Assembly: GCF_001969365.1 (NCBI RefSeq)
Contig: NZ_CP019312.1
Location: 3,695,001-3,759,000, forward strand
Length of the DNA: 64,000 nucleotides
Direction of reading: 5' to 3'
Source: Tateyamaria omphalii
GTDB taxonomy: Bacteria; Pseudomonadota; Alphaproteobacteria; Rhodobacterales; Rhodobacteraceae
Shown: positions 12,946 to 56,349 of the stretch, piece after piece
Layout of the letters: every line of letters starts with the position of its first letter
How positions within the stretch are numbered: the stretch's first letter is position 1
Made by a program: the position numbers and the translations under genes
Notes under the pieces: generated by a model
Told to the model about the DNA's origin: nothing
What the model saw: the letters and a program-made list of their open reading frames with translations, nothing else
Database searches by the model: none

Positions 12946-13968
12946 ATGACACGTTCATTCACCTTCCCCGTTACAATTACCTTGTGTGCCGCGGGCGCGC
13001 TGTCGCTTGGCGGCACCGGTCACGCCCAGCCCGGCTGGTCCAACGCGGCCGCCATGCCGTCCCCCCGGCAAGAGATTTACGCAACCACGCATGAGGGCCT
13101 GATCTTTACAGCGGGCGGGCTCGCCGAAGGTGCGTCTGCCGTGCGGGATGACTTTCTGGCCTATGATCCGACCAGCGACAGCTGGCGAGAGCTGCCCGAT
13201 CTTCCGGCGGCGCGCCACCATATCACGCTGTCGACGCTGGGCGATGTGATCTATGCCGTTGGCGGATTTTCGGGGGGCTTTCCGGACTGGCGGCCCGAGG
13301 CGTCCGCCTATGCGTTCGATCTGGCCCGGGGTGAATGGCGGGATCTCCCCAATCTGCCCGTCGCGCGCGGAGAGCACGTGTCTGCCGTCGCGGACGGGCG
13401 CATTTTCGTTATCGGGGGCCGCGTGGGCGGAACCGAAGGGGCGGCAAGCTTTACCGAGCACCGGGATACCGGGCGCGTCGATGTCTTTGATCCCGCGACC
13501 GGCATGTGGTCGCGTGGCATAGACGCCCCAACTGCGCGCAACAGCGCGGCAAGCGCCGTGATCGACGGACAGATCTATGTTGTGGGCGGGCGTCAGTACC
13601 TAGGCCAAGCCGATGGGTCCGGGGTCAATGTAAATGTCGCGGCACTTGAAGTCTTTGACCCCGAAACCGGATTATGGTCCGTGCGCGCGCCTATGCCCCG
13701 AGGGGCAGGCGGTCTGGCTGCCGCAGCCGTGGATGGCAAGCTGTATGTCTTTGGCGGCGAGCAATGGAGCCCCTCGCAAGAGGTGTTCGCCGATGGCTGG
13801 GTCTATGATCCAGCGACCGACGCGTGGGCGGCGATGCCGGACCTGAACGTGCCGCGCCACGGATTGGCCGCTGCGGCCATAGATACGCGCATCTTTACCA
13901 TCGGTGGTGCAACTGAAACCGGTGCCGGCGATGTCGACGCCCACGAAATGCTGACTGTCGCCCGCTGA
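12946..13968 (+). CDS. Exported kelch-repeat beta-propeller protein
   Basis: The 340-residue protein has a Sec signal peptide (1-27, ending GHAQ). About five to six kelch repeats follow, each with a GG pair and spaced Tyr/Trp, for example IYAVGGFSGG, IFVIGGRVGG, IYVVGGRQ, LYVFGGEQW and IFTIGGATE. They would close into a periplasmic beta-propeller. It starts 52 bp after paoB with a good ribosome site (aaggaag) and ends 55 bp before paoC, all on one strand. A role as an accessory or substrate-handling partner of the periplasmic aldehyde oxidoreductase follows from position only. It lacks the copper-ligand signature of galactose oxidase as far as I can see. Confidence 0.85.
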   Translation: MTRSFTFPVTITLCAAGALSLGGTGHAQPGWSNAAAMPSPRQEIYATTHEGLIFTAGGLAEGASAVRDDFLAYDPTSDSWRELPDLPAARHHITLSTLGDVIYAVGGFSGGFPDWRPEASAYAFDLARGEWRDLPNLPVARGEHVSAVADGRIFVIGGRVGGTEGAASFTEHRDTGRVDVFDPATGMWSRGIDAPTARNSAASAVIDGQIYVVGGRQYLGQADGSGVNVNVAALEVFDPETGLWSVRAPMPRGAGGLAAAAVDGKLYVFGGEQWSPSQEVFADGWVYDPATDAWAAMPDLNVPRHGLAAAAIDTRIFTIGGATETGAGDVDAHEMLTVAR

Positions 13969-14023
13969 CCCCACTCTCTCTAGCACCGGCCTGGCACCCC
14001 TGCCGGGTCGGAAGGAGCTTGCC

Positions 14024-16195
14024 ATGACTCTGACCTCGACCCCCGACCGCCCCCGGACCGATGCCCGCGACAAGGTGCTGGGCCGCGCGCTGTTTGCCGC
14101 CGATGTGCCGATCCCGGGCCTTCTGCACGCCATGACGGTGCCTGCGACCATCGCCAAGGGCCGTGTCACGCAGATTGATACGCGCGAGGCCATCGCAGAG
14201 CCCGGTGTCGTTCGGGTTTTCACGCACGAAGACTTCGGCGACATTGGCGTGACCCCTGCCACCCTTGGCGGCAACCAGCCCGGATTTCAGCCGATGACCG
14301 GGACCGACATCCTGTTTCGGGGTCAGCCCGTCGCGATGGTGGTTGCGGAGACACTGGAAGCGGCAGCAGAGGCGGCGCGGCTGGTGCATGTGAGTTATGC
14401 GCCAGCGCCCTTCACCGCTTCAATGGGCGCGCCCGGGGCAGAACCGCAGCCGTTCGAAACCACGATCGAGGCGGGCGATGCGACCGGGGCGCTGGACGCG
14501 GCTGAGATCACGATCGAGGCCGCGTATGACCATCCGCAGAACCACCACAACCCGATGGAGCTGATCTCGACCACGGCGCTGGTTGAAGAGGGGCGCATCG
14601 TCATCCGCGAAGGCACCCAGAACACGGCGGCGATCAAATTTGGCACCGCCGGGGCGCTTGGTCTGGATCCCGATTTGGTCGATGCGCTCAGTCCCTATAC
14701 GGGCGGCGGTTTTGGCCAAAAGAATGTGCTGCAACTACAGTCGGTGCTGGTGACACGGGCGGCCATCGCACTTGGCCGTCCGGTCAAGCTGGTGATGCCG
14801 CGTGCGCAGCTGTTTCACACGGCCTCTCATCGGCCTGCGAGCCACCACCGCATTCAGCTGGGCGCGGCGCGAGACGGTCAGATCACCGGAGCCATCTATG
14901 AAAGCGATCAGCAAAACGGACGCTATGACCAATTTCTAGGCTCGGCGCATAACGAGACGGTGAGCCGCGTGTATGGGATCCCCAACTGGACAGGGCGCGA
15001 ACGGCTGGTGAGGGTTGACAGCTCACCGCCCGGCCACATGCGGTCGCCACACGAACATCCCGCGAGCTACGCGTTTGAGAGCGCGATGGATGAACTGGCC
15101 TATGCGCTGGAGATCGACCCCGTCGCGCTGCGCCTGGCAAATGACGCGGGCAGCGACCCGATCACGGGAAAGCCCTATTCCAGCCGGACGTTGAACGAAT
15201 GCCTTGAGCGTGGCGCCGCGCGCTTTGGCTGGGATAGGCGCGTGCCTGCGCCGGGCTCGATGCGGGCCGAGGACGGGTCGCAAATCGGCTGGGGCGTCGC
15301 TGCCGGTGCGTATAAGGGATCCATGTGCCCGGCGATTGCGCGGCTGCGCATCCGGGCGGATGGTGTGACGCAACTGGCCATCACCGGGCACGAGATGGGT
15401 CAGGGCATTCGGAGTGCGGTGGCGTCCGAGTTGATGGAGGTCCTGGCCGTCAATCCGGACCGGATGGAGATCCGGATGGGTGATACGCGCGCGGCACCGC
15501 AACACCTGACCGCAGGATCATGGGGCACGGGCAGTGCGGTTCCGGCGACCCGTGCGGTGGCGGAGCGTATGCACGCCGCACTGACGGAACTGCTAGGCCC
15601 TCTTGAGCCGGGCGACGACGTCCATGCCAGGTTGATGGCGGTGCGGCGCCCCTATCTGGAGGTGTCGGTCACGCAATTGGGTCTGGATCAGACGCAGGCG
15701 CATCTTGACCGGATGCTGCGCGGCGCGCCCGCTGCCATCGGACCGGAATACAACGATTTGGTCGCCTTCAGCTGGATTGCGCATTTCATCGAGGTGCGCG
15801 TGCATCCGACGCTGCGGCAGATCCGGGTGCCCCGTGTCGTGTCCGTGGCCGATTGCGGGCGCGTGATGAACCACCGGACAGCGACCAGTCAGATTCATGG
15901 CGGTGTGGTCTGGGGGATCGGCGCGGCGCTGCACGAGGTTGCAGAGATCGACCCGCGATATGGGTTTGTGTTGAACAACGACATTGCCGATTACGTCATG
16001 CCGGTCAACGCGGATATCGGCGACATCTCGGTCGAGCTTTTGGACCAGCCGGATCTTGCGCTGAACGCATCTGGCGTCAAAGGCATCGGTGAGGTTGCAA
16101 TGGTTGGTGTCAGCGCGGCGGTTGCAAACGCGGTGTTCCATGCGACAGGGCGACGGGTGCGGCACTTGCCGATCCGGGTTGAAGATTTGATGTGA
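14024..16195 (+). CDS. paoC: Aldehyde oxidoreductase molybdenum-cofactor-binding subunit
   Basis: The 723-residue protein is the large subunit of the xanthine-dehydrogenase family. It shows the aldehyde oxidase/xanthine dehydrogenase a/b hammerhead domain (about 12-120), then the molybdopterin-binding domains. Motifs include GGGFGQKN (about 227-234) and GHEMGQGIRSAV (about 457-468). The catalytic-glutamate segment GVKGIGEVAMVGVS lies near the C-terminus. The reaction is oxidation of aldehydes to acids with water as oxygen donor. A strong ribosome site (ggaaggagcttgcc) precedes the ATG. No PaoD/XdhC-type cofactor-insertion chaperone is adjacent, so one must be encoded elsewhere. Confidence 0.9.
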   Translation: MTLTSTPDRPRTDARDKVLGRALFAADVPIPGLLHAMTVPATIAKGRVTQIDTREAIAEPGVVRVFTHEDFGDIGVTPATLGGNQPGFQPMTGTDILFRGQPVAMVVAETLEAAAEAARLVHVSYAPAPFTASMGAPGAEPQPFETTIEAGDATGALDAAEITIEAAYDHPQNHHNPMELISTTALVEEGRIVIREGTQNTAAIKFGTAGALGLDPDLVDALSPYTGGGFGQKNVLQLQSVLVTRAAIALGRPVKLVMPRAQLFHTASHRPASHHRIQLGAARDGQITGAIYESDQQNGRYDQFLGSAHNETVSRVYGIPNWTGRERLVRVDSSPPGHMRSPHEHPASYAFESAMDELAYALEIDPVALRLANDAGSDPITGKPYSSRTLNECLERGAARFGWDRRVPAPGSMRAEDGSQIGWGVAAGAYKGSMCPAIARLRIRADGVTQLAITGHEMGQGIRSAVASELMEVLAVNPDRMEIRMGDTRAAPQHLTAGSWGTGSAVPATRAVAERMHAALTELLGPLEPGDDVHARLMAVRRPYLEVSVTQLGLDQTQAHLDRMLRGAPAAIGPEYNDLVAFSWIAHFIEVRVHPTLRQIRVPRVVSVADCGRVMNHRTATSQIHGGVVWGIGAALHEVAEIDPRYGFVLNNDIADYVMPVNADIGDISVELLDQPDLALNASGVKGIGEVAMVGVSAAVANAVFHATGRRVRHLPIRVEDLM

Positions 16196-45358: not shown

Positions 45359-46258
45359 TCAGCCGCGGCTGCTCAGTTGCCGGTCGGCCAGCACTGCGGC
45401 GGATGTACGGTTGTCGACGCCCATTTTCTGGAACACCTGTTCGAGATGTTTGTTCACTGTCCGTGCGCTCAGGCTCAGGATTGCGCTGATGTCCCGGTTG
45501 GTTTTGCCCAGTGTCAGCCAGTAGAGCACTTCGGCTTCGCGTGCCGTCAGGTTAAAGGCAGTTTGCAGCCTGTCTTCCCTGCGTGCGTCGTTCTGCATGG
45601 CCAGCTTGACCAGAATTTCACGTGTGGCCGACAGGCCCATGAAATGAGCGGCAATGCTTTCGCTTACATGTGGGTTGATATCAGAAACCGGGCGGACAAC
45701 GCAGCCAAGCAGCCAAGTCTGGAACGCGGGTTCGTCCAGTGCAAATTCGGTCTCTTTCAATAGATCCAGAGCGCTTTTGGAGCCCCATGCGAACTGGGCA
45801 TTCTCATCGAACGCCAGCACGGGGCGTTCAAACGCATCAATCGCCTCTCGGGCGCTTTGCAACATGCGGGAGTTGACGACATGGGTGCTAAGGCGCGCGA
45901 TCATCTCTTCGATCACTACCGGTTTCGTGATGTAGTCGACGCCGCCAGCTTGCAAGCCTTTGACGACATGTTCCTGATCGCAGAGGCCGGTCATGAAGAT
46001 GATCGGCGCAAGGGTCGGATTGGGCCCGGTTTTGAGTACACGGCACGTTTCAAACCCGTCAATGTCCGGCATGATGGCATCCATCAGGATGACGTCAGGT
46101 TGCACCCTGTGGGTCAACTTGATGGCTGAATATCCGTCGCGCGCGACAAGGACGGTCATGCCTTGCGCTTCAAGGGCGCTTGACACCATGCCCAGCGAGT
46201 CCGGGTTGTCATCGACAACAAGCGCGATGCTTTTGTCACCTGTCTCAAGCGTTTTCAT
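45359..46258 (-). CDS. LuxR-type DNA-binding response regulator
   Basis: From the ATG at 46258 the product has 299 residues. The receiver domain (about 10-128) has the acidic pair DDN at 16-18, Asp60 (ILMDAIMPDIDG) and Lys in DYITKPV. A linker of about 100 residues (about 140-230) follows; it resembles a degenerate PAS domain (PVLAFDENAQFAWGSKSAL). The C-terminal LuxR helix-turn-helix is at about 235-297 (LTAREAEVLYWLTLGKTNRDI). The gene overlaps the end of the transporter-kinase gene by 14 bp, so the two form a coupled two-component pair. The likely target is the divergent amide-uptake operon. Confidence 0.92.
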   Translation of the reverse strand: MKTLETGDKSIALVVDDNPDSLGMVSSALEAQGMTVLVARDGYSAIKLTHRVQPDVILMDAIMPDIDGFETCRVLKTGPNPTLAPIIFMTGLCDQEHVVKGLQAGGVDYITKPVVIEEMIARLSTHVVNSRMLQSAREAIDAFERPVLAFDENAQFAWGSKSALDLLKETEFALDEPAFQTWLLGCVVRPVSDINPHVSESIAAHFMGLSATREILVKLAMQNDARREDRLQTAFNLTAREAEVLYWLTLGKTNRDISAILSLSARTVNKHLEQVFQKMGVDNRTSAAVLADRQLSSRG

Positions 46259-49200
46259 GATCGTCCTCAAGCAGGCGGGCGAGGCCCTCCATATCAAATT
46301 GTTCCAAGCACGCATCAAGCGCGCGCATCAGTGATACTGGTCCAACGCCCGCGGTTCGAAGGTCATCGAGCGCGGTGCGCAGCGCGCGCGCGTGACCGAT
46401 CTGTGCTGCATCCAGCAGGGTCTTGCGTTCCTTGTCGGTCATGGTGCGCAGAACGGGGGCAGACCGCTCTTGCCCCATGATCAGCTTGACCTTGAGCAAT
46501 TCGGCGATCTGCAGCAGCAACTCATCAAGGTTGTAGGGTTTGGCGAAAAACGCGTCATGCAGACCAATCTCTGCCCGGTGCAGCCCTTCCTCATTGGCAT
46601 GGCCCGAGATCATCACGATGGGCGTGTTTTGATGGTGGCCGGTCCGCAATGCGCGCGCAAAGCTCCAGCCGTCGTGACCGGGCATGTCAATATCGAGCAG
46701 GATGATGTCGGGACGCGCATCCGCAAGCATCGTCTTGGCCACGTCCACAGAGGACGCGCAGAGGACAACAAACCCGAACCTTGTCAGGAAGCTTTCAGCA
46801 AGCGCCAGGTGGTTGAAGTCGTCATCCACCACCAGGATCGTCTTGCGCGGTCCTTCGTAGCCGTCAACGGGCAGGGCGTCGCTTTCCGGGTTCATGGTTC
46901 TGTGGTCAAACACGTTCTGCGTGACCGAAGGCAACATAAGCCGGACACGGAAGCGACTGCCTTCGCCGACGGCGCTTTCGACGTCGATCTCGCCGCCAAG
47001 GATCTCGACCAGCAATTTGGTGATCGTCAGCCCCAGCCCCGATCCATGGATGTCACGCTGCTCCCCCCGCTCGAACGGGCGCCATATGCGGTCGAGATGT
47101 TCGGGGGCGATGCCAATGCCGCTGTCGGTAACCTCGATGATGGCCACCTCATTGCGATAGGTGAGTTTGAACACCACTGACCCTTCTTCGGTGTAGCGAA
47201 TGGCGTTGGACAGCAGGTTGATAATGATCTGGCGCAGGCGTTTTTCATCAGACCGTACGAAGGCTGGAAGCAATCCTTCGGTCCGCAGCTCGAACGCGAT
47301 ATTCTTGATGCGCGCCTCTTCCTCAAAGATCGAGGTCACCTGGGTCAGCAACACCCGCAGGTTGATCTGGTCACGCATGATTTCAAGGCGCCCTGCCTCG
47401 ATCCGCGCGATGTCGAGAAGCCCGTCAATGAGACCCGCGAGATGCTCGCTGGAGCGGCGGATGCTGGTCAGGGAAGGTCGCCAGTTTTCAAGGCGCGCAT
47501 CCTTTTCAAGTAGCTGTGCAAATCCGTAGATCGCGTTGAGTGGTGTGCGCAACTCATGGCTTAGCCCCGACATATAGCGTGTCTTGGCCAGGTTTGCGGC
47601 CTCTGCCTTTTCCTTGGCCTTTTGCAAGGCGCGGTCAGTGCGCTCGTGGGCGCGGATTTCCTTGAGCAGACGTTCGGTTTGGCGCTCCGCCTCGGCGGTT
47701 GCGCTGCGCCTGCTTTCGCCGCTGAGCAGGAACATCCAGACCGAAATGCCAATGACAATGCTGACGGTGCCGAAGATCACGGTAAGCACGCCGTCGAAAT
47801 TGGGGGCCGAGGCGAAGCTGCTGACAAGGTTGAGCACCCCGCCGAATGCCAGTGAAATGACAATTGTGGCGATGACGAAATGGGCATGCCGGGTCATCAA
47901 CGCACGGGCGATCTGGTCGGGCAGGTATGTAAAGAGCCAATGCCTTATGACGTGGTCGACACGGCCGTGGGGCTTGCAGACATCGTGGCAGGCGGTCTCC
48001 AGCGTGCAGCAGAGCGAGCAGATGGGACCGGCATGGAACGGGCAGTTGGTCATATCCTCGGGATCGAACCGGAATTCGCACACCGAACAGGAATGCAAAG
48101 CCTCTGGAAACTCTTGGCTTGGGCGGGCGATGTAGTATTTGCCTTTGGTCGCCCATGCGAGGATGGGGGCCAGCGCAAAGGCCGACCCGAGCGCGACGAA
48201 CGATGAAAACGCCTGGAACAAAGGCCCGAACAGACCGCCATAGGACAGGAACGCCAGAAGGCAGGCAATCAACATCGACCCGATGCCGACCGGGTTGATG
48301 TCGTAGAGATGCGCGCGACGGAACTCGATGCCTTTTGGGCTGAGGCCGAGGGGTTTGTTGACAATCAGATCAGAGACAAGCGCGCCGATCCAGGCCACGG
48401 CCACGTGGGAGTATACGCCCAATACATGCTCCAGCCCGGTGAACACGCCCAGTTCCATCAGCAGCAATGCGATACAGACGTTAAACACAAGCCAGACAAC
48501 GCGCCCGGGATGGGTATGCGTCAGGCGGGAGAAGAAATTCGACCACGCGATGGAGCCTGCATAGGCATTGGTGACGTTGATCTTGAGCTGCGACAGGATC
48601 ACGAACAGACCTGTCAGTGCCAGGACGAGGAACGGCGAATTGATGAGCTGGTCAAAGGCCACGTAGTACATGCGCGTCGGGTCAGAGGCATCCTCGCCTG
48701 ACACGCCTTCGCGGATGGCCAATGTGACGAGATAGGACCCAGCCAGCATTTTCAGCACACCCAGAATCGACCAGCCGGGCCCGGCGGCCAGAAGTGCCAG
48801 CCACCATTTGCGCCTGTCCTGCTTTGTCTTGGGTTCTGGCAAGAACCTTAGGAAATCAACCTGCTCGCCGATTTGTGCCACCAAGGAAAACACCACGCCG
48901 GAGGCGGCGCCAAACATCAAGAGACGGGAGGTGTCAGAGGCTTCCTCTGGTCCGGCGAAGGACGTCCAGTTGTCGATGTCGTAGCCCACAAAGGCGAGAA
49001 AGACGAAGGGCAACATATGCAGAAGGACCCAAAGCGGCTGGGTCCATGTCTGAAACGTTGATATCTTGGAAAAGCCATGGATGACCAATGGGATCACCAC
49101 AAGTGAGCTTGCGACATAGCCCAGAAACAGCGGCACCCCGAGTGTGAATTCCAACGCCAATGCCAGGATCGCGGCCTCCAGCGCGAAGAAAATAAAGGTG

Positions 49201-49574
49201 AATGAGGCATAGATGAGCGAGGTGACGGTCGAGCCGATGTAACCAAAGCCTGCCCCGCGCGTCATAAGGTCGATGTCGAGCCCGTAGCGTGCCGCGTAGT
49301 AGGAAATGGGCAGCCCCGTCAAAAACAGGATCACCCCCACGACCATGATCGCCACGATTGCGATGTCAAAGCCGTACGTGAGGGTGATGGCCCCGCCGAT
49401 GGCTTCCAGTGCCAGAAATGAAATCGAGCCGATCGCCGTGTTCGCCACGCGACCATAGCTCCACCGTCGCGCACGCCGCGCTGTGAAGCGCAGGGCAAAA
49501 TCCTCCATCGTTTCGTTGGCGACCCAACGGTTGTAGGTGCGCTTTTCGCGCGTTGCCCCAAGCGCCCTAGCCAT
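46245..49574 (-). CDS. NCS1 transporter - Cys-rich linker - hybrid histidine kinase fusion
   Basis: From the ATG at 49574 (aagga 8 bases upstream) the product has 1109 residues. Residues 1-480 form a complete NCS1-type (nucleobase:cation symporter-1) domain with about 12 membrane helices. A cysteine-rich module follows (Cys496, 499, 511, 519, 522, 523, 529, 533), likely binding zinc or an iron-sulfur cluster. Two more helices lie at about 567-587 and 595-617, then a coiled coil. The kinase core has His673 (SHELRTPLN), the N-box near 787-795 and G-boxes DSGIGIA and GSGLGL. The receiver domain has Asp961 and Lys1012. A C-terminal helical tail of about 70 residues ends the protein. It probably senses, and perhaps transports, a nitrogen compound. 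Confidence 0.9.
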   Translation of the reverse strand: MARALGATREKRTYNRWVANETMEDFALRFTARRARRWSYGRVANTAIGSISFLALEAIGGAITLTYGFDIAIVAIMVVGVILFLTGLPISYYAARYGLDIDLMTRGAGFGYIGSTVTSLIYASFTFIFFALEAAILALALEFTLGVPLFLGYVASSLVVIPLVIHGFSKISTFQTWTQPLWVLLHMLPFVFLAFVGYDIDNWTSFAGPEEASDTSRLLMFGAASGVVFSLVAQIGEQVDFLRFLPEPKTKQDRRKWWLALLAAGPGWSILGVLKMLAGSYLVTLAIREGVSGEDASDPTRMYYVAFDQLINSPFLVLALTGLFVILSQLKINVTNAYAGSIAWSNFFSRLTHTHPGRVVWLVFNVCIALLLMELGVFTGLEHVLGVYSHVAVAWIGALVSDLIVNKPLGLSPKGIEFRRAHLYDINPVGIGSMLIACLLAFLSYGGLFGPLFQAFSSFVALGSAFALAPILAWATKGKYYIARPSQEFPEALHSCSVCEFRFDPEDMTNCPFHAGPICSLCCTLETACHDVCKPHGRVDHVIRHWLFTYLPDQIARALMTRHAHFVIATIVISLAFGGVLNLVSSFASAPNFDGVLTVIFGTVSIVIGISVWMFLLSGESRRSATAEAERQTERLLKEIRAHERTDRALQKAKEKAEAANLAKTRYMSGLSHELRTPLNAIYGFAQLLEKDARLENWRPSLTSIRRSSEHLAGLIDGLLDIARIEAGRLEIMRDQINLRVLLTQVTSIFEEEARIKNIAFELRTEGLLPAFVRSDEKRLRQIIINLLSNAIRYTEEGSVVFKLTYRNEVAIIEVTDSGIGIAPEHLDRIWRPFERGEQRDIHGSGLGLTITKLLVEILGGEIDVESAVGEGSRFRVRLMLPSVTQNVFDHRTMNPESDALPVDGYEGPRKTILVVDDDFNHLALAESFLTRFGFVVLCASSVDVAKTMLADARPDIILLDIDMPGHDGWSFARALRTGHHQNTPIVMISGHANEEGLHRAEIGLHDAFFAKPYNLDELLLQIAELLKVKLIMGQERSAPVLRTMTDKERKTLLDAAQIGHARALRTALDDLRTAGVGPVSLMRALDACLEQFDMEGLARLLEDDHENA

Positions 49575-49668
49575 TCTGGTGTCCTTGTAAGCGGGCGCAT
49601 TTTGCAATCACGGATCATACCGCTTCTCGCGCCCCCAGTGTCTCCAAGCAGAGTGACAACTACCCTAC

Positions 49669-49683
49669 TGCGCAAAACGCGCA
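49669..49683. promoter_or_regulatory. Short palindrome upstream of urtA
   Basis: tgcgc-aaaac-gcgca is a 5-5-5 inverted repeat five bases before the larger palindrome at 49688. It lies in the 219-bp gap between the transporter-kinase gene and urtA and could be a second regulator half-site or part of a promoter. Confidence 0.35.
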
Positions 49684-49687
49684 GGCA

Positions 49688-49707
49688 TATACGTCAATTA
49701 ACGTATA
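49688..49707. promoter_or_regulatory. Perfect 7-bp inverted repeat, candidate site for the LuxR-type regulator
   Basis: tatacgt (49688-49694) and acgtata (49701-49707) are exact reverse complements around caatta. The 20-bp AT-rich palindrome lies 86 bp before the urtA start, a fitting position for activation by the response regulator encoded just beyond the kinase gene. Confidence 0.5.
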
Positions 49708-49793
49708 CTGCGCCGCAGCAATCACTCTGATGCTCATTTGCGGAGGGCGAACAAGAATCGTCCATTCTTTTACCGCTTTGCGAAGGAGGCGAT

Positions 49794-51065
49794 ATGCCAG
49801 ACGAGACACCCAAGACGAATGCCGCAGGTCTATCCCGGCGCCAGATCCTTGCCGGGGGCACGGCACTCGGCGCTGCCTTGTTCCTGCCGAAAGATCTGAG
49901 AGCCGCCGATTTTCCGACCGCCGAGATCAACACCACCGGCCTGGCCGTCACGGACGACACCGTGACCATCGGCATCCTGCACTCGGTCACTGGAACGATG
50001 GCGATTTCCGAGACAGGCTCCGTTCAGGCCGAAAAGCTGGCGATTGAGCAGATCAACGCGCAGGGCGGCATCCTGGGTCGCAAGATCGAGTACATCCAGG
50101 AAGACGGCGCTTCTGATTGGCCGACCTTTGCCGAGAAGGCGCGCAAGCTGCTTGTTAACGACAAGGTGGCGTCGGTCATGGGCTGCTGGACGTCGGCCAG
50201 CCGCAAAGCGGTTCTGCCGGTGTTCGAGCAGCATAACGGGTTTCTCTACTATCCGACCTTCTATGAGGGCCTCGAGCAGAGCCCCAACGTCATCTACACC
50301 GGCCAGGAGGCCACGCAACAGATCATTGCGGGCCTTGATTGGGTCAACCAGACCAAGGATGCCAAGACATTCTATCTGCTTGGGTCGGACTACATCTGGC
50401 CGCGCACGTCGAACAAGATCGCGCGCAAGCACATCGAAAACTTCATGGAAGGCTGCAAGGTCGTGGGTGAGGAATACTACCCGCTTGGCCACACGCAGTT
50501 CAACTCGGTCATCAACAAGATCCGCCTGCGCAAGCCGGATGTGATCTATGCCATCGTCGTGGGTGGCTCGAATGTGGCGTTCTACAAGCAATTGAAGGCG
50601 GCGGGCATTGATCCGACGGAGGAAAGCCCGATCGTGCTGACCATTTCGGTGACCGAGGATGAGATCCGCGGCATCGGCGGCGAGAACATCGAAGGCGCCT
50701 ATGCCTGCATGAAGTACTTCCAGTCGCTTGAAAACGAGAACAACGTCAAGTTCGTGGAAGAATTCAAGAAGATGTGGGGCGATGACATCGTGATCGGCGA
50801 TGTGACCCAGGCCGCCTATCTTGGTCCATGGCTTTGGAAAGCGGCAGTCGAGAAGGCCGGCAGCTTTGACGTGGACAAGGTGCGCGCGGCCTCACCGGGT
50901 ATCGAGCTCACCACTGCACCCGAAGGCTACGTCAAGGTGCATGAAAACCACCACCTCTGGTCCAAGACCCGCGTCGGCAAGGCGCAGGCGGACGGACAAT
51001 ACGAGGTCGTATTCGAGACCGCAGAGCTTGTTGAGCCGGACCCGTTCCCGGAAGGCTACCAATAA
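49794..51065 (+). CDS. urtA: Urea/short-chain amide ABC transporter substrate-binding protein
   Basis: The 423-residue protein begins with a Tat-type signal (LSRRQILAGGTALGAALF). The mature part is a type I periplasmic binding protein of the UrtA/FmdD/AmiC group: IGILHSVTGTMAISE (about 59-73), GGILGRKIEYIQEDGASDWPT, GCWTSASRKAVLPV and the YPTFYEGLEQSPNVIYTG segment characteristic of UrtA. It is preceded by gaaggaggcgat. UrtA-like proteins bind urea or formamide-type amides. With formamidase encoded in the same operon, a short-chain amide is as likely a ligand as urea. Confidence 0.92.
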   Translation: MPDETPKTNAAGLSRRQILAGGTALGAALFLPKDLRAADFPTAEINTTGLAVTDDTVTIGILHSVTGTMAISETGSVQAEKLAIEQINAQGGILGRKIEYIQEDGASDWPTFAEKARKLLVNDKVASVMGCWTSASRKAVLPVFEQHNGFLYYPTFYEGLEQSPNVIYTGQEATQQIIAGLDWVNQTKDAKTFYLLGSDYIWPRTSNKIARKHIENFMEGCKVVGEEYYPLGHTQFNSVINKIRLRKPDVIYAIVVGGSNVAFYKQLKAAGIDPTEESPIVLTISVTEDEIRGIGGENIEGAYACMKYFQSLENENNVKFVEEFKKMWGDDIVIGDVTQAAYLGPWLWKAAVEKAGSFDVDKVRAASPGIELTTAPEGYVKVHENHHLWSKTRVGKAQADGQYEVVFETAELVEPDPFPEGYQ

Positions 51066-51077
51066 GCATCTGCTGAT

Positions 51078-51107
51078 GGGCGACCTGGTTCCTACGCCGG
51101 GTCGCCC
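51078..51107 (+). promoter_or_regulatory. Hairpin between urtA and urtB
   Basis: gggcgacc (51078-51085) pairs perfectly with ggtcgccc (51100-51107) right after the urtA stop. No U-run follows. Such hairpins commonly protect the binding-protein message or dampen readthrough so that urtA is made in excess over the permeases. Confidence 0.6.
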
Positions 51108-51152
51108 TAGCCGCCCCTCTCCCTGTCTTATTCGTCTCGTTGGAGCTGCAAC

Positions 51153-52079
51153 ATGTTTGCCGACTATTCCTGGCCCGAACTTGGCGCGATCTTTGCCATG
51201 CAAGGCTTTGCTGGCCTGATCCTTTTCTCTGTGTTCGTGTTGATGGCGCTTGGTCTGGCGATCATCTTTGGTCAGATGGGCGTCATCAACATGGCGCACG
51301 GGGAGTTCATGATCCTTGGCGCCTATGTCACCTACCTGATGTCGAACCTGTTTGCCGACCATGTGCCGGCGCTGTTCGGCATGTACTTCTTTGTCGCTAT
51401 GTTTCTGGCGTTCATCGCGTCCGGCGCGCTGGGGTTACTGGTCGAATGGGCCATGATCCGGCACCTCTACAAACGGCCACTTGATACGCTTTTGGCGACC
51501 TGGGGGCTGAGCCTTATTCTGCAGCAGGTCTATCGCAGTGTTTTTGGTGCGCGCGAGGTGGGCGTGTCCATTCCGGATTGGATGATGGGGTCCATGCCCG
51601 TGACGGACCTTATTGAAATACCCATCAATGGCATATTCGTGATGGTTTTGGCGGTCAGCATCTCGGTTGGCGTTTACATCATGATGTTCCGTTCGAACTG
51701 GGGCAAGCAGGTGCGCGCGATCAACCAGAACCGGGTGATGGCGGGCGCCGTTGGCATCAACACCGAATGGACCGACCGTTTGACGTTCGGCATCGGCTGC
51801 GGGGTCGCGGGTGTTGCGGGCTCGGCCTTTACAATGATCGGCTCGACCGGCCCCACGGCAGGGCAGCTGTACATTGTCGACACGTTCCTGGTGGTGGTCT
51901 TCGGTGGCGCCGCGTCGCTGCTGGGCACAATTGCCTCGGCATTCTCAATCTCTCAGGCGCAATCCATCATGGAGTTCTTCCTCTCCGGCTCGATGGCCAA
52001 GGTTCTGACGCTTCTGGTGGTCGTCGGCATCCTGATGATCCGCCCACAGGGTCTCTTTGCCATGAAACTGCGTAAGTAA
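51153..52079 (+). CDS. urtB: Urea/amide ABC transporter permease (LivH-type)
   Basis: The 308-residue membrane protein has about eight helices and LivH/UrtB motifs: ALGLAIIFGQMGVINMAHGEFMILGAY (about 33-59), the RPLDTLLATWGLSLILQQ segment, and the cytoplasmic coupling loop with GKQVRAINQNRVMAGAVGIN. It forms the translocation channel with UrtC. It lies 87 bp after urtA, across the hairpin, and 12 bp before urtC. Confidence 0.92.
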   Translation: MFADYSWPELGAIFAMQGFAGLILFSVFVLMALGLAIIFGQMGVINMAHGEFMILGAYVTYLMSNLFADHVPALFGMYFFVAMFLAFIASGALGLLVEWAMIRHLYKRPLDTLLATWGLSLILQQVYRSVFGAREVGVSIPDWMMGSMPVTDLIEIPINGIFVMVLAVSISVGVYIMMFRSNWGKQVRAINQNRVMAGAVGINTEWTDRLTFGIGCGVAGVAGSAFTMIGSTGPTAGQLYIVDTFLVVVFGGAASLLGTIASAFSISQAQSIMEFFLSGSMAKVLTLLVVVGILMIRPQGLFAMKLRK

Positions 52080-52091
52080 GGGGCCGCTCTG

Positions 52092-53231
52092 ATGACACGT
52101 ACTTCCTTCATGACCCGCAAAGAGCTGATCGGTTTCCTGATCCTCGCGGCGGTGATCTTCGTGCTTTTGCCAGCGGTACTGGACAGTTTCCGCCTCAACC
52201 TCTTTGGCAAATACCTCACCTACGCCTTTGTCGCGGTTGGCCTTGCGCTGTGCTGGGGCGCGGGCGGCATCCTGAGCCTGGGGCAGGGCGTCTTTTTCGG
52301 CTTGGGCGGCTACTGCATGGCGATGTTTCTCAAGCTCGAAGCGTCGACGCCCGAGAATACGTCGATCCAGTCCACCCCCGGCATTCCCGACTTCATGGAC
52401 TGGAACCAGCTGACGGAACTGCCTGTCTGGTGGCAGCCCTTCTATAGCCTGCCTCTGGCCCTGCTGGCGGTGGTTGCTGTGCCGGTGGCCTTCGCCTTCA
52501 TCATCGGCTTTGCCATGTTCACCCGGCGTGTGGGTGGGGTGTACTTCGCGATCATCACCCAGGCCTTTGCCGCGATCCTTACAATCCTGATCATCGGGCA
52601 ACAGGGCTATACCGGCGGCGTCAACGGCATCACGGACCTGCGCACGCTTCTGGGGTGGGATATCCGCACGGATGAAGCGAAGACGACGCTTTATTTCGTC
52701 AACGGCGTGCTGCTGTTCGCCGTTCTCTTGATCGCGCAATATGTACGAAAATCCAAACTTGGGCGGCTATTGATTGCTATGCGCGATCAAGAAGATCGCG
52801 TGCGCTTTTCGGGCTACAACGTCGCCAATTTCAAGATCTTCATCTTCTGTCTCGGGGCTGCCTTTGCCGGTATCGGCGGGGCGATGTTCACGCTGCAGGT
52901 GGGTTTCATGTCGCCCACACTGGTCGGCATCGTTCCTTCGATCGAGATGGTTATCTTTTGCGCCGTTGGCGGCAGGCTTTCGATCCTTGGAGCGGTTTAT
53001 GGCGCGCTGTTGGTGAACTGGGCCAAAACTTCATTTTCGGAAGCGTTTCCAGAGCTTTGGCTGCTGGGTCTGGGCGGGTTGTTCATCGCGGTCGTGATGT
53101 TTTTTCCCAACGGGTTGGCCGGGCTGTGGTCCGAAAAGATCGAACCGCAGCTTGAGGGGCTTTTCCGCAAATCCAAACCGGTTGAACCCGCTGAAAGCGC
53201 TGCCCCGTCGTCCCGCGCCGCGGCAGAATAA
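52092..53231 (+). CDS. urtC: Urea/amide ABC transporter permease (LivM-type)
   Basis: The 379-residue membrane protein has about ten helices and LivM/UrtC motifs: ALCWGAGGILSLGQGVFFGLGGY (about 53-75), GVYFAIITQAFAAILTIL and the coupling loop RLLIAMRDQEDRVRFSGYNVANFKIF. The YTGGVNGITDL segment is typical of UrtC. It pairs with UrtB. The C-terminal 35 residues are polar and Pro/Ala-rich. Confidence 0.92.
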   Translation: MTRTSFMTRKELIGFLILAAVIFVLLPAVLDSFRLNLFGKYLTYAFVAVGLALCWGAGGILSLGQGVFFGLGGYCMAMFLKLEASTPENTSIQSTPGIPDFMDWNQLTELPVWWQPFYSLPLALLAVVAVPVAFAFIIGFAMFTRRVGGVYFAIITQAFAAILTILIIGQQGYTGGVNGITDLRTLLGWDIRTDEAKTTLYFVNGVLLFAVLLIAQYVRKSKLGRLLIAMRDQEDRVRFSGYNVANFKIFIFCLGAAFAGIGGAMFTLQVGFMSPTLVGIVPSIEMVIFCAVGGRLSILGAVYGALLVNWAKTSFSEAFPELWLLGLGGLFIAVVMFFPNGLAGLWSEKIEPQLEGLFRKSKPVEPAESAAPSSRAAAE

Positions 53232-53243
53232 GGAGATTTGTCG

Positions 53244-53984
53244 ATGTCAGACCGTTTCATTCTGAGCGTTGAGGAACTCACGGTGTCCTTCGATGGGTTC
53301 AAGGCCGTTGATGCACTCAGTTTCTATGTTGAACCAAACGAATGCCGGGTGATCATCGGGCCCAACGGGGCGGGCAAGACCACGGTGCTGGACCTCATTT
53401 GCGGGCGCACCAAGGCCACCGGCGGCACGGTCAAATTCAAGGACAAAGAGCTGCTGTCAATGCGCGAGGACCAGATCGTGAATGCGGGCGTTGGGCGCAA
53501 GTTTCAGACACCCAGCGTGTATGAAGACCTTACCGTCTCGGAAAATCTGGAACTTAGTTATCCCAAGGGCCACAGCGTTTTTGGTGCACTGATGTTCCGG
53601 CGCGACGATCTGATCCAGACCCGTATCATCGAAATCGCCAAGACGATCTTTCTCGACAACCAGCTTGATGAAAAGGCGGCGTTCCTGAGCCATGGGCAAA
53701 AGCAATGGTTGGAGATCGGGATGCTGCTGATCCAGGACCCGGAGCTGTTGATGCTGGACGAGCCGGTGGCGGGCATGTCGGTGGCCGAACGCAAGAAAAC
53801 CGCAGAACTGCTGAACCGCATCATTCAGGATCGTTCGGTCATCGTGATCGAGCACGACATGGGGTTCGTCGCCGACATCGCGACCCGGGTTACGGTGCTG
53901 CACCAGGGCAAAACGCTCAGCGAAGGGTCAATGGAGCGTGTGCAGAACGATCCCAAAGTTGTCGAAGTCTATCTGGGTCATTGA
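53244..53984 (+). CDS. urtD: Urea/amide ABC transporter ATPase (LivG-type)
   Basis: The ATG at 53244 follows aaggag at 8 bases. The 246-residue ATPase has Walker A (GPNGAGKTT), a Q-loop in GVGRKFQTPSVYEDLTV, the signature region (LSHGQKQWLEIGMLL, with LSHGQ instead of LSGGQ, as usual in UrtD), Walker B (LLMLDEPVAGMS) and the H-loop in IVIEHDMGF. It energises the UrtB/UrtC channel together with UrtE. Confidence 0.93.
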   Translation: MSDRFILSVEELTVSFDGFKAVDALSFYVEPNECRVIIGPNGAGKTTVLDLICGRTKATGGTVKFKDKELLSMREDQIVNAGVGRKFQTPSVYEDLTVSENLELSYPKGHSVFGALMFRRDDLIQTRIIEIAKTIFLDNQLDEKAAFLSHGQKQWLEIGMLLIQDPELLMLDEPVAGMSVAERKKTAELLNRIIQDRSVIVIEHDMGFVADIATRVTVLHQGKTLSEGSMERVQNDPKVVEVYLGH

Positions 53985-53995
53985 GGAGAGCCGCC

Positions 53996-54685
53996 ATGCT
54001 GAATGTCAAATCCCTGCGTGCCTCCTATGGCGAGAGCGAGGTGCTTCATAGCCTCGACCTTGATGTGAAACCGGGCGAAATTGTTGCCATCATGGGCCGC
54101 AACGGCATGGGCAAAACCACGCTGATGAAAACGCTGATGGGCATCATGCCCGAACGTGGCGGAGAGGTTCAAGTTGGTGACACGGCTCTCACCGGGCTCA
54201 AGTCACACCAACGCGTCGCCAGGGGCATCGCATATGTGCCGCAAGGCCGCATGATTTTTTCGGCCATGACGGTGAAGGAAAACGTGGAAACCGGGCTTAC
54301 TGTCACGGGACAGAAAACCGTACCGGACGACATTTACGAACTGTTCCCGGTTCTGCTCGAGATGAAGAACCGGCGCGGCGGCAACCTGTCTGGTGGACAG
54401 CAGCAACAGCTCGCCATAGCACGGGCTCTGGCTTCAAACCCCAAAGTCCTTCTGCTTGATGAGCCGACCGAAGGCATCCAGCCCTCAATCATCCGCGAAA
54501 TGGCCCGCACGCTGCGTAAAATCCGCGACCAAAAGGGCCTGAGCATCGTCGTTTCAGAACAGGTGCTAAGCTTTGCGCTCGATGTCGCCGACCGCGTCAT
54601 GGTGATCGAGAATGGCCGCTTTGTTCATGACAGTCCGCGCGACAGCCTCGACGAGGCCAAGGTCACAAAATTCCTGTCCGTGTAG
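53996..54685 (+). CDS. urtE: Urea/amide ABC transporter ATPase (LivF-type)
   Basis: The ATG at 53996 follows gaggag. The 229-residue ATPase has Walker A (GRNGMGKTTLMK), the YVPQGRMIFSAMTVKENV region typical of LivF/UrtE, signature NLSGGQQQQLAIARAL, Walker B (VLLLDEPTEGIQPS) and the switch region VVSEQVLSFAL, where SEQ replaces the usual EH(Q)N. It is 11 bp after urtD and 24 bp before the formamidase gene. Confidence 0.93.
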   Translation: MLNVKSLRASYGESEVLHSLDLDVKPGEIVAIMGRNGMGKTTLMKTLMGIMPERGGEVQVGDTALTGLKSHQRVARGIAYVPQGRMIFSAMTVKENVETGLTVTGQKTVPDDIYELFPVLLEMKNRRGGNLSGGQQQQLAIARALASNPKVLLLDEPTEGIQPSIIREMARTLRKIRDQKGLSIVVSEQVLSFALDVADRVMVIENGRFVHDSPRDSLDEAKVTKFLSV

Positions 54686-54709
54686 TCAAACCCAACTTGG
54701 AGGATACCA

Positions 54710-55975
54710 ATGCCTGACACTTATCAAACACCTATGGCGTCTTATTCAGCGGACACGCTGATCCGGGTCGATCTGGATGAGAGCCCGCACACCAACGAGA
54801 AAATTCACAACCGTTGGCACCCGGATATCCCGATTGTCGAATGGGTTGATGCCGGTGACGATTTCATTGTCGAGGCCTATGACTGGACCGGCAGCCAAAT
54901 TGCCAACAACGATGACGCCGCGGATGTGCGCGACGTGGAATTGCCGCAGGTGCACTACCTGTCCGGACCAATCGGCGTGCGCGGTGCGCAACCCGGCGAT
55001 CTGCTGGTCGTCGAGCTGTTGGATGTTGGCCCACTGGACCGCAGCCAGTGGGGTTTCAACGGCGTCTTTTCCAAAAACAACGGCGGAGGTTTCCTGCAGG
55101 AGCAATTCCCGACCGCGCAGAAATCCATCTGGGATTTCAAGGGTATGTTCACCTCGTCGCGCCACGTTCCAGGCGTACGCTACGCGGGCCTCATTCATCC
55201 GGGTCTGATCGGCACATTGCCGGATCGCAAGATGCTGGACGCGTGGAACACCCGCGAAAAAGCGTTGTTCGACACGAACCCCACCCGCGTGCCAGCGTTG
55301 GCAGAACTGCCCAACACCCAAGCGGCCCATATGGGGAAAATGACCGGCGAGGCCCGTGATGCCGCCGCCGCCGAAGCGGCGCGCACATTGCCGCCCCGCG
55401 AGAACGGGGGGAATTGCGATATCAAGGACCTCAGCCGCGGCTCGGTCTGTTACTTCCCTTGCTATGTGGAGGGCGGCGGTCTTTCGATGGGCGACACCCA
55501 CTTCAGTCAGGGCGACGGTGAGATTACCTTCTGCGGCGGTATCGAGATGGCCAGCTGGCTGCACGTCAAAGTCAGCATTATCAAGGACGGGATTGCGAAA
55601 TACGGCGTCAAAAACCCGATGTTCAAACCATCGCCGATCACGCCGAAATATGACGATTATCTGATCTTCGAAGGCATCTCGGTCGATGAGGATGACAACC
55701 AACATTATGTCGATATGACCGAGGCGTACCGCCAGGCCTGCCTGAACGCGATTAACTACATGACCAAGTTCGGTTACTCGCGTGAACAGGGCCTCGCCAT
55801 CCTTGGAACCGCGCCCGTGCAGGGACATGTGTCTGGCATCGTCGACTATCCAAATGCCTGCGCAACCCTCTGGCTGCCCACGGATATTTTCGAGGGCGAC
55901 TTGATGCCGGGGCCGGACGGGCCAACGAAGTATCTCGACGGCTCAATCGACATCCCCACCGCGCCGGACCTCTAG
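54710..55975 (+). CDS. fmdA: Formamidase
   Basis: The 421-residue protein is a full-length member of the acetamidase/formamidase family (FmdA). It shows HNRWHPDIPIVEWVDAGDDF (about 33-52), VHYLSGPIGVRGAQPGDLLVVELLDVG, GNCDIKDLSRGSVCYFPCYVEGGGLSMGDTH-type core segments (GGGLSMGDTH carries conserved acid and His), and QGDGEITFCGGIEM. It hydrolyses formamide to formate and ammonia in the cytoplasm. It is the sixth gene of the operon, so the imported substrate is converted directly to an ammonium source. Confidence 0.93.
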   Translation: MPDTYQTPMASYSADTLIRVDLDESPHTNEKIHNRWHPDIPIVEWVDAGDDFIVEAYDWTGSQIANNDDAADVRDVELPQVHYLSGPIGVRGAQPGDLLVVELLDVGPLDRSQWGFNGVFSKNNGGGFLQEQFPTAQKSIWDFKGMFTSSRHVPGVRYAGLIHPGLIGTLPDRKMLDAWNTREKALFDTNPTRVPALAELPNTQAAHMGKMTGEARDAAAAEAARTLPPRENGGNCDIKDLSRGSVCYFPCYVEGGGLSMGDTHFSQGDGEITFCGGIEMASWLHVKVSIIKDGIAKYGVKNPMFKPSPITPKYDDYLIFEGISVDEDDNQHYVDMTEAYRQACLNAINYMTKFGYSREQGLAILGTAPVQGHVSGIVDYPNACATLWLPTDIFEGDLMPGPDGPTKYLDGSIDIPTAPDL

Positions 55976-55983
55976 AACACATG

Positions 55984-56010
55984 CCCTGCGGTCTCACGCA
56001 GGCCGCAGGG
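55984..56010 (+). promoter_or_regulatory. Hairpin after fmdA (attenuator or weak terminator)
   Basis: ccctgcgg (55984-55991) pairs with ccgcaggg (56003-56010) around an 11-base loop, between fmdA and fmdB. Only ctcttt follows, so it probably reduces rather than ends transcription. Confidence 0.5.
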
Positions 56011-56031
56011 CTCTTTGCACACGGAGTTGAA

Positions 56032-56349
56032 ATGCCCCTTTATGACTACATCTGTGCCGAACATGGCGTGTTTCAGGAAATGGCGCCTGTCAGCCGCTTT
56101 GACGCGCCGTGCGCCTGTCCCGTCTGCGGTGCAAGTTCCGTGCGCGCCCTGACCGTACCGCAGCTTTCAACGCTCGCTCCGCTTGCCCGTAAAGCGCACG
56201 GCGTCAACGAGCGTTCATCGGACAGCCCAAGGCGAGCCAAGGCGAATGGACTGACACCCTCGGGTCCCAGGATCCGCAGCAAATCTCACCGTGCGGCCGA
56301 TGGGACGAAAAGCACGCAGTCGTCGCGTCCTTGGATGCTGTCTCATTGA
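56032..56349 (+). CDS. fmdB: FmdB-family zinc-ribbon protein
   Basis: The ATG at 56032 follows cggagttgaa. The 105-residue protein opens with MPLYDYICAEHGVFQEM and a zinc ribbon (Cys8, then CACPVCG near 28-34), the hallmark of FmdB proteins. In Methylophilus the fmd cluster includes fmdB, which is considered a regulatory protein. The C-terminal tail ends in SSRPWMLSH, the usual end in Rhodobacterales members. It closes the amide operon. The longer frame from 55981 is spurious. Confidence 0.88.
   Translation: MPLYDYICAEHGVFQEMAPVSRFDAPCACPVCGASSVRALTVPQLSTLAPLARKAHGVNERSSDSPRRAKANGLTPSGPRIRSKSHRAADGTKSTQSSRPWMLSH

Follow-up and report, generated by a model that had tools for sequence, protein, structure and literature searches.

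An NCS1-like hybrid histidine kinase of Tateyamaria omphalii as a candidate receptor for urea or short-chain amides at a urt-fmd locus

We analysed a window of 64,000 nucleotides from Tateyamaria omphalii (contig NZ_CP019312.1, positions 3,695,001 to 3,759,000), in which the genes of a hybrid histidine kinase and its partner response regulator lie back to back with an operon for an ATP-binding cassette (ABC) transporter of the urea/amide type and a formamidase. The kinase, here called NHK, is a protein of 1109 residues with an NCS1-like N-terminus and is encoded on the reverse strand at 46245..49574 (ATG at 49574). The partner response regulator (RR; 45359..46258, reverse strand, 299 residues) was found by Pfam to consist of a receiver domain (REC) and a LuxR-type helix-turn-helix, and its gene overlaps that of NHK by 14 bp (46245-46258). 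The operon urtABCDE-fmdA-fmdB runs divergently from NHK across a gap of 219 bp (49575-49793). Identities, lengths and strands of the genes, the overlap and the gap all agree with an original prediction made for this locus. As argued below, NHK is probably (roughly 0.7) a receptor kinase that perceives urea or short-chain amides and acts through RR on a palindrome at the urt promoter.

The operon genes are all on the forward strand. urtA (49794..51065) is of the amide type and reached 550 bits with TIGR03407 (cut-off 492.75). Together with urtB (51153..52079, 308 residues), urtC (52092..53231), urtD (53238..53984; a TTG start is listed and an ATG at 53244 is possible) and urtE (53996..54685), five of five subunits exceeded the NCBIfam cut-offs for urea transporters, family models that leave the substrate of a Urt transporter undecided (PMC3098086). 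fmdA (54710..55975) encodes a formamidase (703 bits with NF045496 against a cut-off of 500). fmdB (55981..56349) encodes an FmdB-family zinc-ribbon protein that passed TIGR02605 and not NF053663; since the NCBIfam and Pfam matches start at residue 18, its true start is probably 56032, not 55981. Elsewhere in the same genome, another UrtA exceeded the urea cut-off; it shares 40% identity with that of the window and is accompanied by a UrtB of 659 residues. The genome also has a urease alpha-subunit gene, around which the open reading frames appear, from their order and sequence, to be the remaining urease genes. The window transporter is therefore not the sole urea candidate of the genome, so that an amide is the more likely substrate for it. 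This line of reasoning has been published for a urt-fmdA cluster of Bradyrhizobium (PMC3098086).

Relatives of NHK were collected as 80 named loci, the best of 116 that were confirmed, and from a class-wide draw of 289 genomes, with wider stretches for 17. The resulting count of 100 loci leaves out a fragment (L022) and a weak match (L023, E 3.8e-9), and L001 is the window itself. The alignment of 97 rows and the trees contain 96 loci and the window; L024, L069, L084 and L096 had no open frame of more than 900 residues. The NHK domains of L002 and L060 are identical, and the two loci may represent one organism from two collections. The loci vary in length, so that missing fmdA or urt genes in short ones mean little, and several are metagenome bins.

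Amide-type UrtA was found at 70 of the 100 loci, and fmdA lay in the retrieved stretch at 61 of these 70. L126 had both types of UrtA, 13 loci had canonical UrtA only, and L096 had fmdA and no UrtA. The loci belong to Rhodobacterales and other alphaproteobacteria, to Comamonadaceae and other betaproteobacteria, and to gammaproteobacteria (Gynuella, Nitrincola, Cellvibrionaceae). A urease-subunit match was observed at four of the 100 loci, three of them amide-type. Urt genes were present in the retrieved stretch at 83 loci and divergent from NHK at 79 of these. An RR-like match was found at 93 loci, and the remaining seven end at most 190 bp from the NHK match. In the draw, 23 of the 289 genomes matched NHK (21 full, one fragment, one weak). 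In 17 of the 21, urt genes lay no more than about 10 kb from NHK (11 amide-type, six canonical); among the four unlinked genomes, G026, G136 and G217 carry amide-type urt-fmdA elsewhere, and G041 has canonical UrtA about 60 kb from NHK. Amide-type UrtA, searched separately with a limit of E <= 1e-120 that was set to tell it from canonical UrtA, occurred in 14 of the 289 genomes including that of the window, and NHK was present in all 14 (13 of 13 when the window's own is omitted), for which a hypergeometric P of 3e-18 was obtained with the 23 NHK genomes, kinship being ignored. The original prediction was to be dropped if relatives showed no conserved linkage with urt/fmd genes; the linkage was found at the 83 loci, and NHK co-occurred with amide-type UrtA in the 14 genomes. 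The NHK family is not tied to formamidase. The 13 loci with only a canonical urea-type transporter make urea or a short-chain amide a more likely class of signal than a purine, allantoin or hydantoin. As separate observations, the myxobacterial NHKs L074, L077, L080 and L092 (Sorangium, Polyangium) have partial RR-like matches upstream and no UrtA match nearby, and at L110 a convergent gene for a sensor-kinase-like protein of 490 residues (13795-15267, reverse strand) stands behind the canonical urt operon of this genome, its product being 29% identical over 246 residues to the kinase core of NHK.

The regions between NHK and urtA were searched for shared dyads in 78 cases (77 loci and the window). 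The top dyad was TACGT-N6-ACGTA, present in 59 of the 78. The extended palindrome ATACGT-N6-ACGTAT was found with at most two mismatches in its 12 bases in 75 regions, 48 of them perfect, and only 1.1% of shuffled regions (mononucleotide shuffles, which keep base composition and not dinucleotides) reached two mismatches. By class, it was present in 67 of 69 amide-type and eight of nine urea-type regions. In 1.91 Mb of loci there were 47 perfect palindromes, every one inside an NHK-urtA intergenic region, and 87 core dyads (TACG-N8-CGTA), which were present in 68 of the 78 regions. In the window, the palindrome ATACGTCAATTAACGTAT at 49689..49706, 87 bp before the urtA ATG, is the proposed binding site of RR and the sole perfect 12-base copy in the genome. 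The consensus scan for a sigma-70-type promoter before urtA found none. A conserved A and a conserved T, 24 and 28 bp after the palindrome, fit a possible -10 hexamer of the urt promoter (GATGCT, 49729..49734, forward strand), which would place the palindrome at about -52 to -35. The regulatory link of NHK and RR to urt foreseen in the original prediction thus acquires a candidate element, a conserved palindrome in the promoter region.

In six loci the kinase does not adjoin urt, and in five of these the palindrome accompanies the transporter operon. It stands 185 bp (L090) and 106 bp (L094) before the UrtA match, and at L088 and L097 (two mismatches each) and L114 before a porin-like gene preceding urt; L116 had no palindrome at two mismatches. 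Furthermore, in a genus where NHK and urt are unlinked, the core dyad was observed upstream of the amide-type urtA in three of three genomes, where it differs from the full palindrome by three mismatches; the canonical and third UrtA genes of these genomes had no core dyad within 1.5 kb. In the same genus a palindrome with a single mismatch also stands some 200 bp ahead of NHK. A large regulon in the window's own genome was rejected: at two mismatches or fewer there were 44 sites against 45 in the reversed control, and for the 10-base core two against two, so that the perfect 12-base site alone is noteworthy.

Several other elements were noticed in these regions. At L117-L119, where no urt genes are nearby, NHK is preceded at about 200 bp by a one-mismatch palindrome. 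Its position before NHK itself suggests autoregulation; L095 likewise has a palindrome near NHK. Directly upstream of the palindrome in the window, at 49668-49684, is a second inverted repeat, CTGCGCAAAACGCGCAG, for which the label of an NtrC site was rejected, its spacing being unlike that of the NtrC consensus. A AAAACGCGCA-like stretch is common to many related intergenic regions. A half-conserved site, (A/C)TACGTCAAA-n-nCCCCAT, was observed before the canonical UrtA match in members of three urea-linked genera of one clade (181 bp at L115, about 120 bp at L116 and about 130-150 bp at L196); it is possibly a variant site of the regulator.

The membrane domain of NHK (residues about 22-478; 48141..49511, reverse strand) had been taken for a full NCS1 permease domain. 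In Pfam, the whole protein gave no NCS1 match at E <= 1, and residues 1-640 gave no PF02133 match at E <= 10 (the HMMER filters discard most matches above about 0.1). A PF02133 profile search of the genome returned nothing at E <= 0.001. As neither the protein, residues 1-640 nor the genome gave a match, we rejected an assignment to NCS1 by Pfam. In profile-profile comparison, NHK matched a set of eight NCS1 sequences (CodB, AllW, L131-L136) with E 5.2e-14 over 415 columns, and a set of five NCS1 sequences with E 1.7e-6. Ten column-shuffled controls gave E >= 0.1 and the reversed control E 0.037. A three-sequence SLC5 set gave E 0.25, and single MntH, CycA and NupC gave E >= 0.099, these controls from other families being shallower than the NCS1 set. 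The predicted fold was also closest to solved NCS1 proteins, with similarity over about 400 residues. No SLC5 domain was identified in NHK. One sequence search of the PDB returned nothing and another only matches at E >= 0.099. Some NHK members are annotated by JGI as purine-cytosine permease-like plus kinase. The earlier description therefore stands in part: the domain is NCS1-like by fold and profile-profile comparison, and it lies below Pfam detection. Mean column identity was 63% in the alignment of residues 1-640 (44 rows), and conservation peaked in transmembrane helices 3 (TM3; 26 of 48 positions) and 8 (TM8; 17 of 39).

The transporter sites of this domain seem to be altered. In the profile alignment, CodB Thr278 and Thr279 correspond to Lys331 (Na2-site position; codon 48582..48584, reverse strand) and Ile332 of NHK, and both residues are present in 97 of 97 NHKs. 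These threonines are two sodium ligands of CodB (PMC9379551). Given the alignment, a CodB-type threonine sodium site is absent from all 97. Because Lys331 is invariant at the Na2 position, the comparison suggests that the NHK domain is not sodium-driven; it would be coupled to protons or act purely as a receptor. Sodium is not used by every NCS1 protein, MetT being likely proton-coupled (PMC13390362), and the Na2 site of CbrA holds a lysine, K196, such lysines being described for proton-coupled relatives (PMC13022988). As for the substrate contacts of CodB, Gln105 would correspond to Thr126 of NHK, and Trp108 to position 129 only when TM3 is read ungapped (hhalign opens a gap there).

Position 129 (Phe129 in the window; codon 49188..49190, reverse strand), located in TM3, was related to gene context. 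All 69 amide-linked rows have Phe here, and 11 of the 13 urea-linked rows have Leu. Nine columns are near-invariant among the amide-linked rows and different among the urea-linked ones, and of these column 129 shows the pattern most sharply. Amide and urea contexts swap about four times on the kinase tree, and there are three Phe-Leu changes at 129. Among four independent pairs differing in context, residue 129 follows the context in three, runs opposite in none and shows no difference in one. In 21 genomes of the draw, amide-type UrtA was present in 14 of 15 with Phe129 and in none of six with Leu129 (P 1e-4, kinship ignored).

Between the membrane domain and the kinase lies an eight-cysteine module (residues 496-533; 47976..48089, reverse strand), whose cysteines 496, 499, 511, 519, 522, 523, 529 and 533 are each present in 96-97 of 97 aligned NHKs. 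It is followed by two extra hydrophobic helices (residues about 562-617; 47724..47891, reverse strand), seen both by AlphaFold2 (AF2; 562-587 and 593-639) and as hydropathy peaks (566-584 and 599-617). The Cys/two-helix region has no Pfam match above cut-off. Folded alone, it gave a predicted local distance difference test score of 79.0 and a predicted template modelling score of 0.54; no fold match in the PDB was found at E <= 0.001, which is no proof of a new fold. Very weak matches to RING and ZZ folds (E > 1) were seen, so that a zinc cross-brace is no more than a guess. A search with the region gave 134 matches; the named ones among the 120 matches listed are annotated as kinases, ATP-binding proteins or response regulators. 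Mean column identity was 49% in the connector alignment (33 rows). The HisKA and HATPase_c core (residues 664-881; 46932..47585, reverse strand) and the receiver domain (residues 913-1023; 46506..46838, reverse strand) passed the Pfam cut-offs. All 97 aligned NHKs have His673, and 95 of them have Asp961. Pfam and the alignment thus bear out the arrangement of cysteine module, kinase core and receiver already described for the 1109-residue protein.

Taken together, these findings are consistent with the following scheme. The NCS1-like domain would bind urea or an amide in a transporter-type substrate site, and the change would be relayed via the Cys-rich module and the two extra helices to the kinase. 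From the domain content, the kinase is expected to be phosphorylated at His673 and to pass the phosphate to Asp961, to RR or to both. Phosphorylated RR would then bind the conserved palindrome and presumably turn on, rather than repress, uptake and hydrolysis, the target in T. omphalii being urtABCDE-fmdAB. Given this target, formamide or a similar amide is the most likely natural ligand in T. omphalii, and urea the most likely one in relatives that have a canonical urea transporter. The switch of amide or urea uptake and hydrolysis put forward in the original prediction is thus supported by linkage, co-occurrence and the palindrome, while binding of the ligand, the compound itself and the step from kinase to RR are presumed. 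We give about even odds to the broader idea of a widespread receptor-kinase class, in which an NCS1 fold has become a sensor of urea and short-chain amides, with its own promoter palindrome, a Cys-rich coupling module and Phe129 or Leu129 tuning it to amides or urea.

A number of observations weigh against this interpretation. The strong profile value needs the NCS1 set, since single CodB gave E 0.0013 and single AllW E 0.13. UrtA was missing from the retrieved stretch at 17 of the 100 loci, some of them short contigs and others not. Most of the amide-type rows come from Rhodobacterales related to one another and do not count as independent. Three of the 78 intergenic regions lack the site (five mismatches at L124, three at L115 and L125), 12 of 14 rechecked loci (UrtA-less or otherwise odd) had none at two mismatches or fewer, and no core dyad was present at the second amide-type urtA of G238 or at the canonical urt of G041. 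Position 129 was picked post hoc: the variable columns 8 and 199 rank higher by raw frequency difference, and eight other columns pass the same filter, less cleanly than 129. L079 and L123, which belong to one clade, are urea-linked and have kept Phe129, and with so few switches the sign test on independent pairs is unable to reach 0.05.

Other explanations were weighed against the receptor reading. Some kinases, such as BceS and LuxQ, are co-sensing, and NHK might similarly perceive loaded UrtA or the working ABC transporter instead of the free compound. The kinase tree and urt type change together about four times, which contact with UrtA explains as well as a shared ligand does. We nevertheless consider this improbable, since conservation is densest in TM3 and TM8, the substrate and ion helices of NCS1 proteins (the outer loops, a possible dock for UrtA, were not counted apart), and some kinases have no urt genes nearby. 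Still less probable is a domain sensing a typical NCS1 ligand (nucleobase, allantoin or hydantoin) or a product of organic-nitrogen breakdown, with urt-fmd as one target among many. Such compounds are what characterised NCS1 proteins transport (PMC9379551, PMC13390362), but an NCS1 protein can also carry metformin, a ring-free guanidine compound (PMC13390362). In NHK the CodB contacts Gln105 and Trp108 appear to be replaced by Thr126 and Phe/Leu129 (the latter by the ungapped reading), the genome has a single perfect palindrome, and, as a weak point, purine or hydantoin metabolism was absent among ten annotated neighbour proteins.

That the Cys-rich module is the true input, a zinc or redox sensor for which the permease domain is only an anchor, strikes us as very unlikely. 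Its eight cysteines are nearly invariant and it has the very weak RING/ZZ-like matches; yet identity is higher in residues 1-640 than in the connector (63% against 49%), and it is a residue of the membrane domain, 129, that tracks gene context. Least credible is a merely historical linkage, with RR mainly controlling something else. The separation of kinase and urt in four of the 21 sampled genomes would fit it, as would the number of palindrome-like sites in the genome, which does not exceed that of the reversed control. On the other hand, the palindrome stays with the urt operon and not with the kinase in five of six separated loci, the core dyad is at urt in the three genomes of the unlinked genus, and co-occurrence was 14 of 14.

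Further features concern the neighbours and UrtA itself. The aliphatic amidase AmiE is encoded at six of the 100 loci, and the two checked scored 719 and 713 bits, the cut-off being 427; at L068 a ClpB-like ATPase lies beside the AmiE gene. A porin-like protein is encoded at five canonical-urt loci (L088, L097, L114, L121, L122) and at L126. It gave a Pfam match in two of three tested (L121, L126), and its NCBIfam ExtI matches were under the cut-off. UrtA of the window showed a weak match to the twin-arginine translocation signal (PF10518, E 0.002, under the model cut-off). A twin-arginine-like motif near the start (49794-49890 in the window) was seen in 56 of 70 amide-type against two of 13 canonical UrtA, with a crude pattern and uncurated starts. 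Since this motif divides by UrtA type, the two types may be exported by different routes.

Urea and small amides serve bacteria as nitrogen sources. A formamidase operon that formamide and urea induce has been described, and the review text consulted names no sensor for it; the NHK locus offers a concrete candidate receptor, regulator and DNA site, which occur in alpha-, beta- and gammaproteobacteria. It also extends the transporter-kinase idea of CbrA and CrbS to another transporter family, and residue 129 is a natural candidate for a one-residue specificity switch. In the open-access literature, most subscription papers being outside this coverage, no paper was recognised as assigning a function to NHK. 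The fmdCABDEF genes of Methylophilus methylotrophus, induced there by formamide and urea, and the urt-fmdA(-amiE) clusters of Bradyrhizobium, Pseudomonas veronii Yu15 and Ectopseudomonas guguanensis G3 resemble the window operon in combining amide/urea uptake with formamidase. They differ in that no kinase is analysed or given a function in the accessible portions of those reports. In E. guguanensis G3, a hybrid kinase and a LuxR-family regulator stand beside one urt operon, with fmdA numbered next; they are left uninterpreted in the available text (PMC13296017).

Among sensor kinases, CrbS/CrbR (MxtR/ErdR) and RpuS/RpuR resemble NHK/RR in having a LeuT-fold transporter domain on a hybrid kinase, a LuxR-family partner and control of uptake genes, RpuS/R and CrbS/R being described as governing substrate uptake via LuxR-family regulators (PMC5715377, PMC9100948). 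CrbR further uses an imperfect inverted repeat that lies immediately upstream of the promoter (ACTU at acs, -52 to -36; PMC5715377). Unlike CrbS and RpuS, NHK is NCS1-like and not SLC5, has the Cys-rich module and two helices in the position that STAC and PAS occupy in those proteins, and is associated with another palindrome and with urea/amide genes in place of acetate/pyruvate genes. CodB and Mhp1, themselves NCS1 transporters, share fold and profile similarity with NHK over about 400 residues; NHK differs in its kinase fusion, in lying below Pfam detection and, by the alignment, in the replaced Na2 threonines and substrate Gln/Trp. CbrB is a regulator of another type than the NHK partner. 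The histidine transceptor CbrA/CbrB resembles NHK in its LeuT-fold domain, Na2-site lysine and kinase fusion, and differs in being SLC5-STAC and in responding to histidine (PMC13022988). The Amt-fused ammonium sensor kinase of Kuenenia likewise joins a transporter domain for a nitrogen compound to a histidine kinase, the domain being an ammonium transporter and not NCS1-like (PMC5764959). NHK is accordingly regarded as a previously uncharacterised variant among transporter-fused sensor kinases, with CrbS/R, RpuS/R and CbrA as its nearest working analogues.

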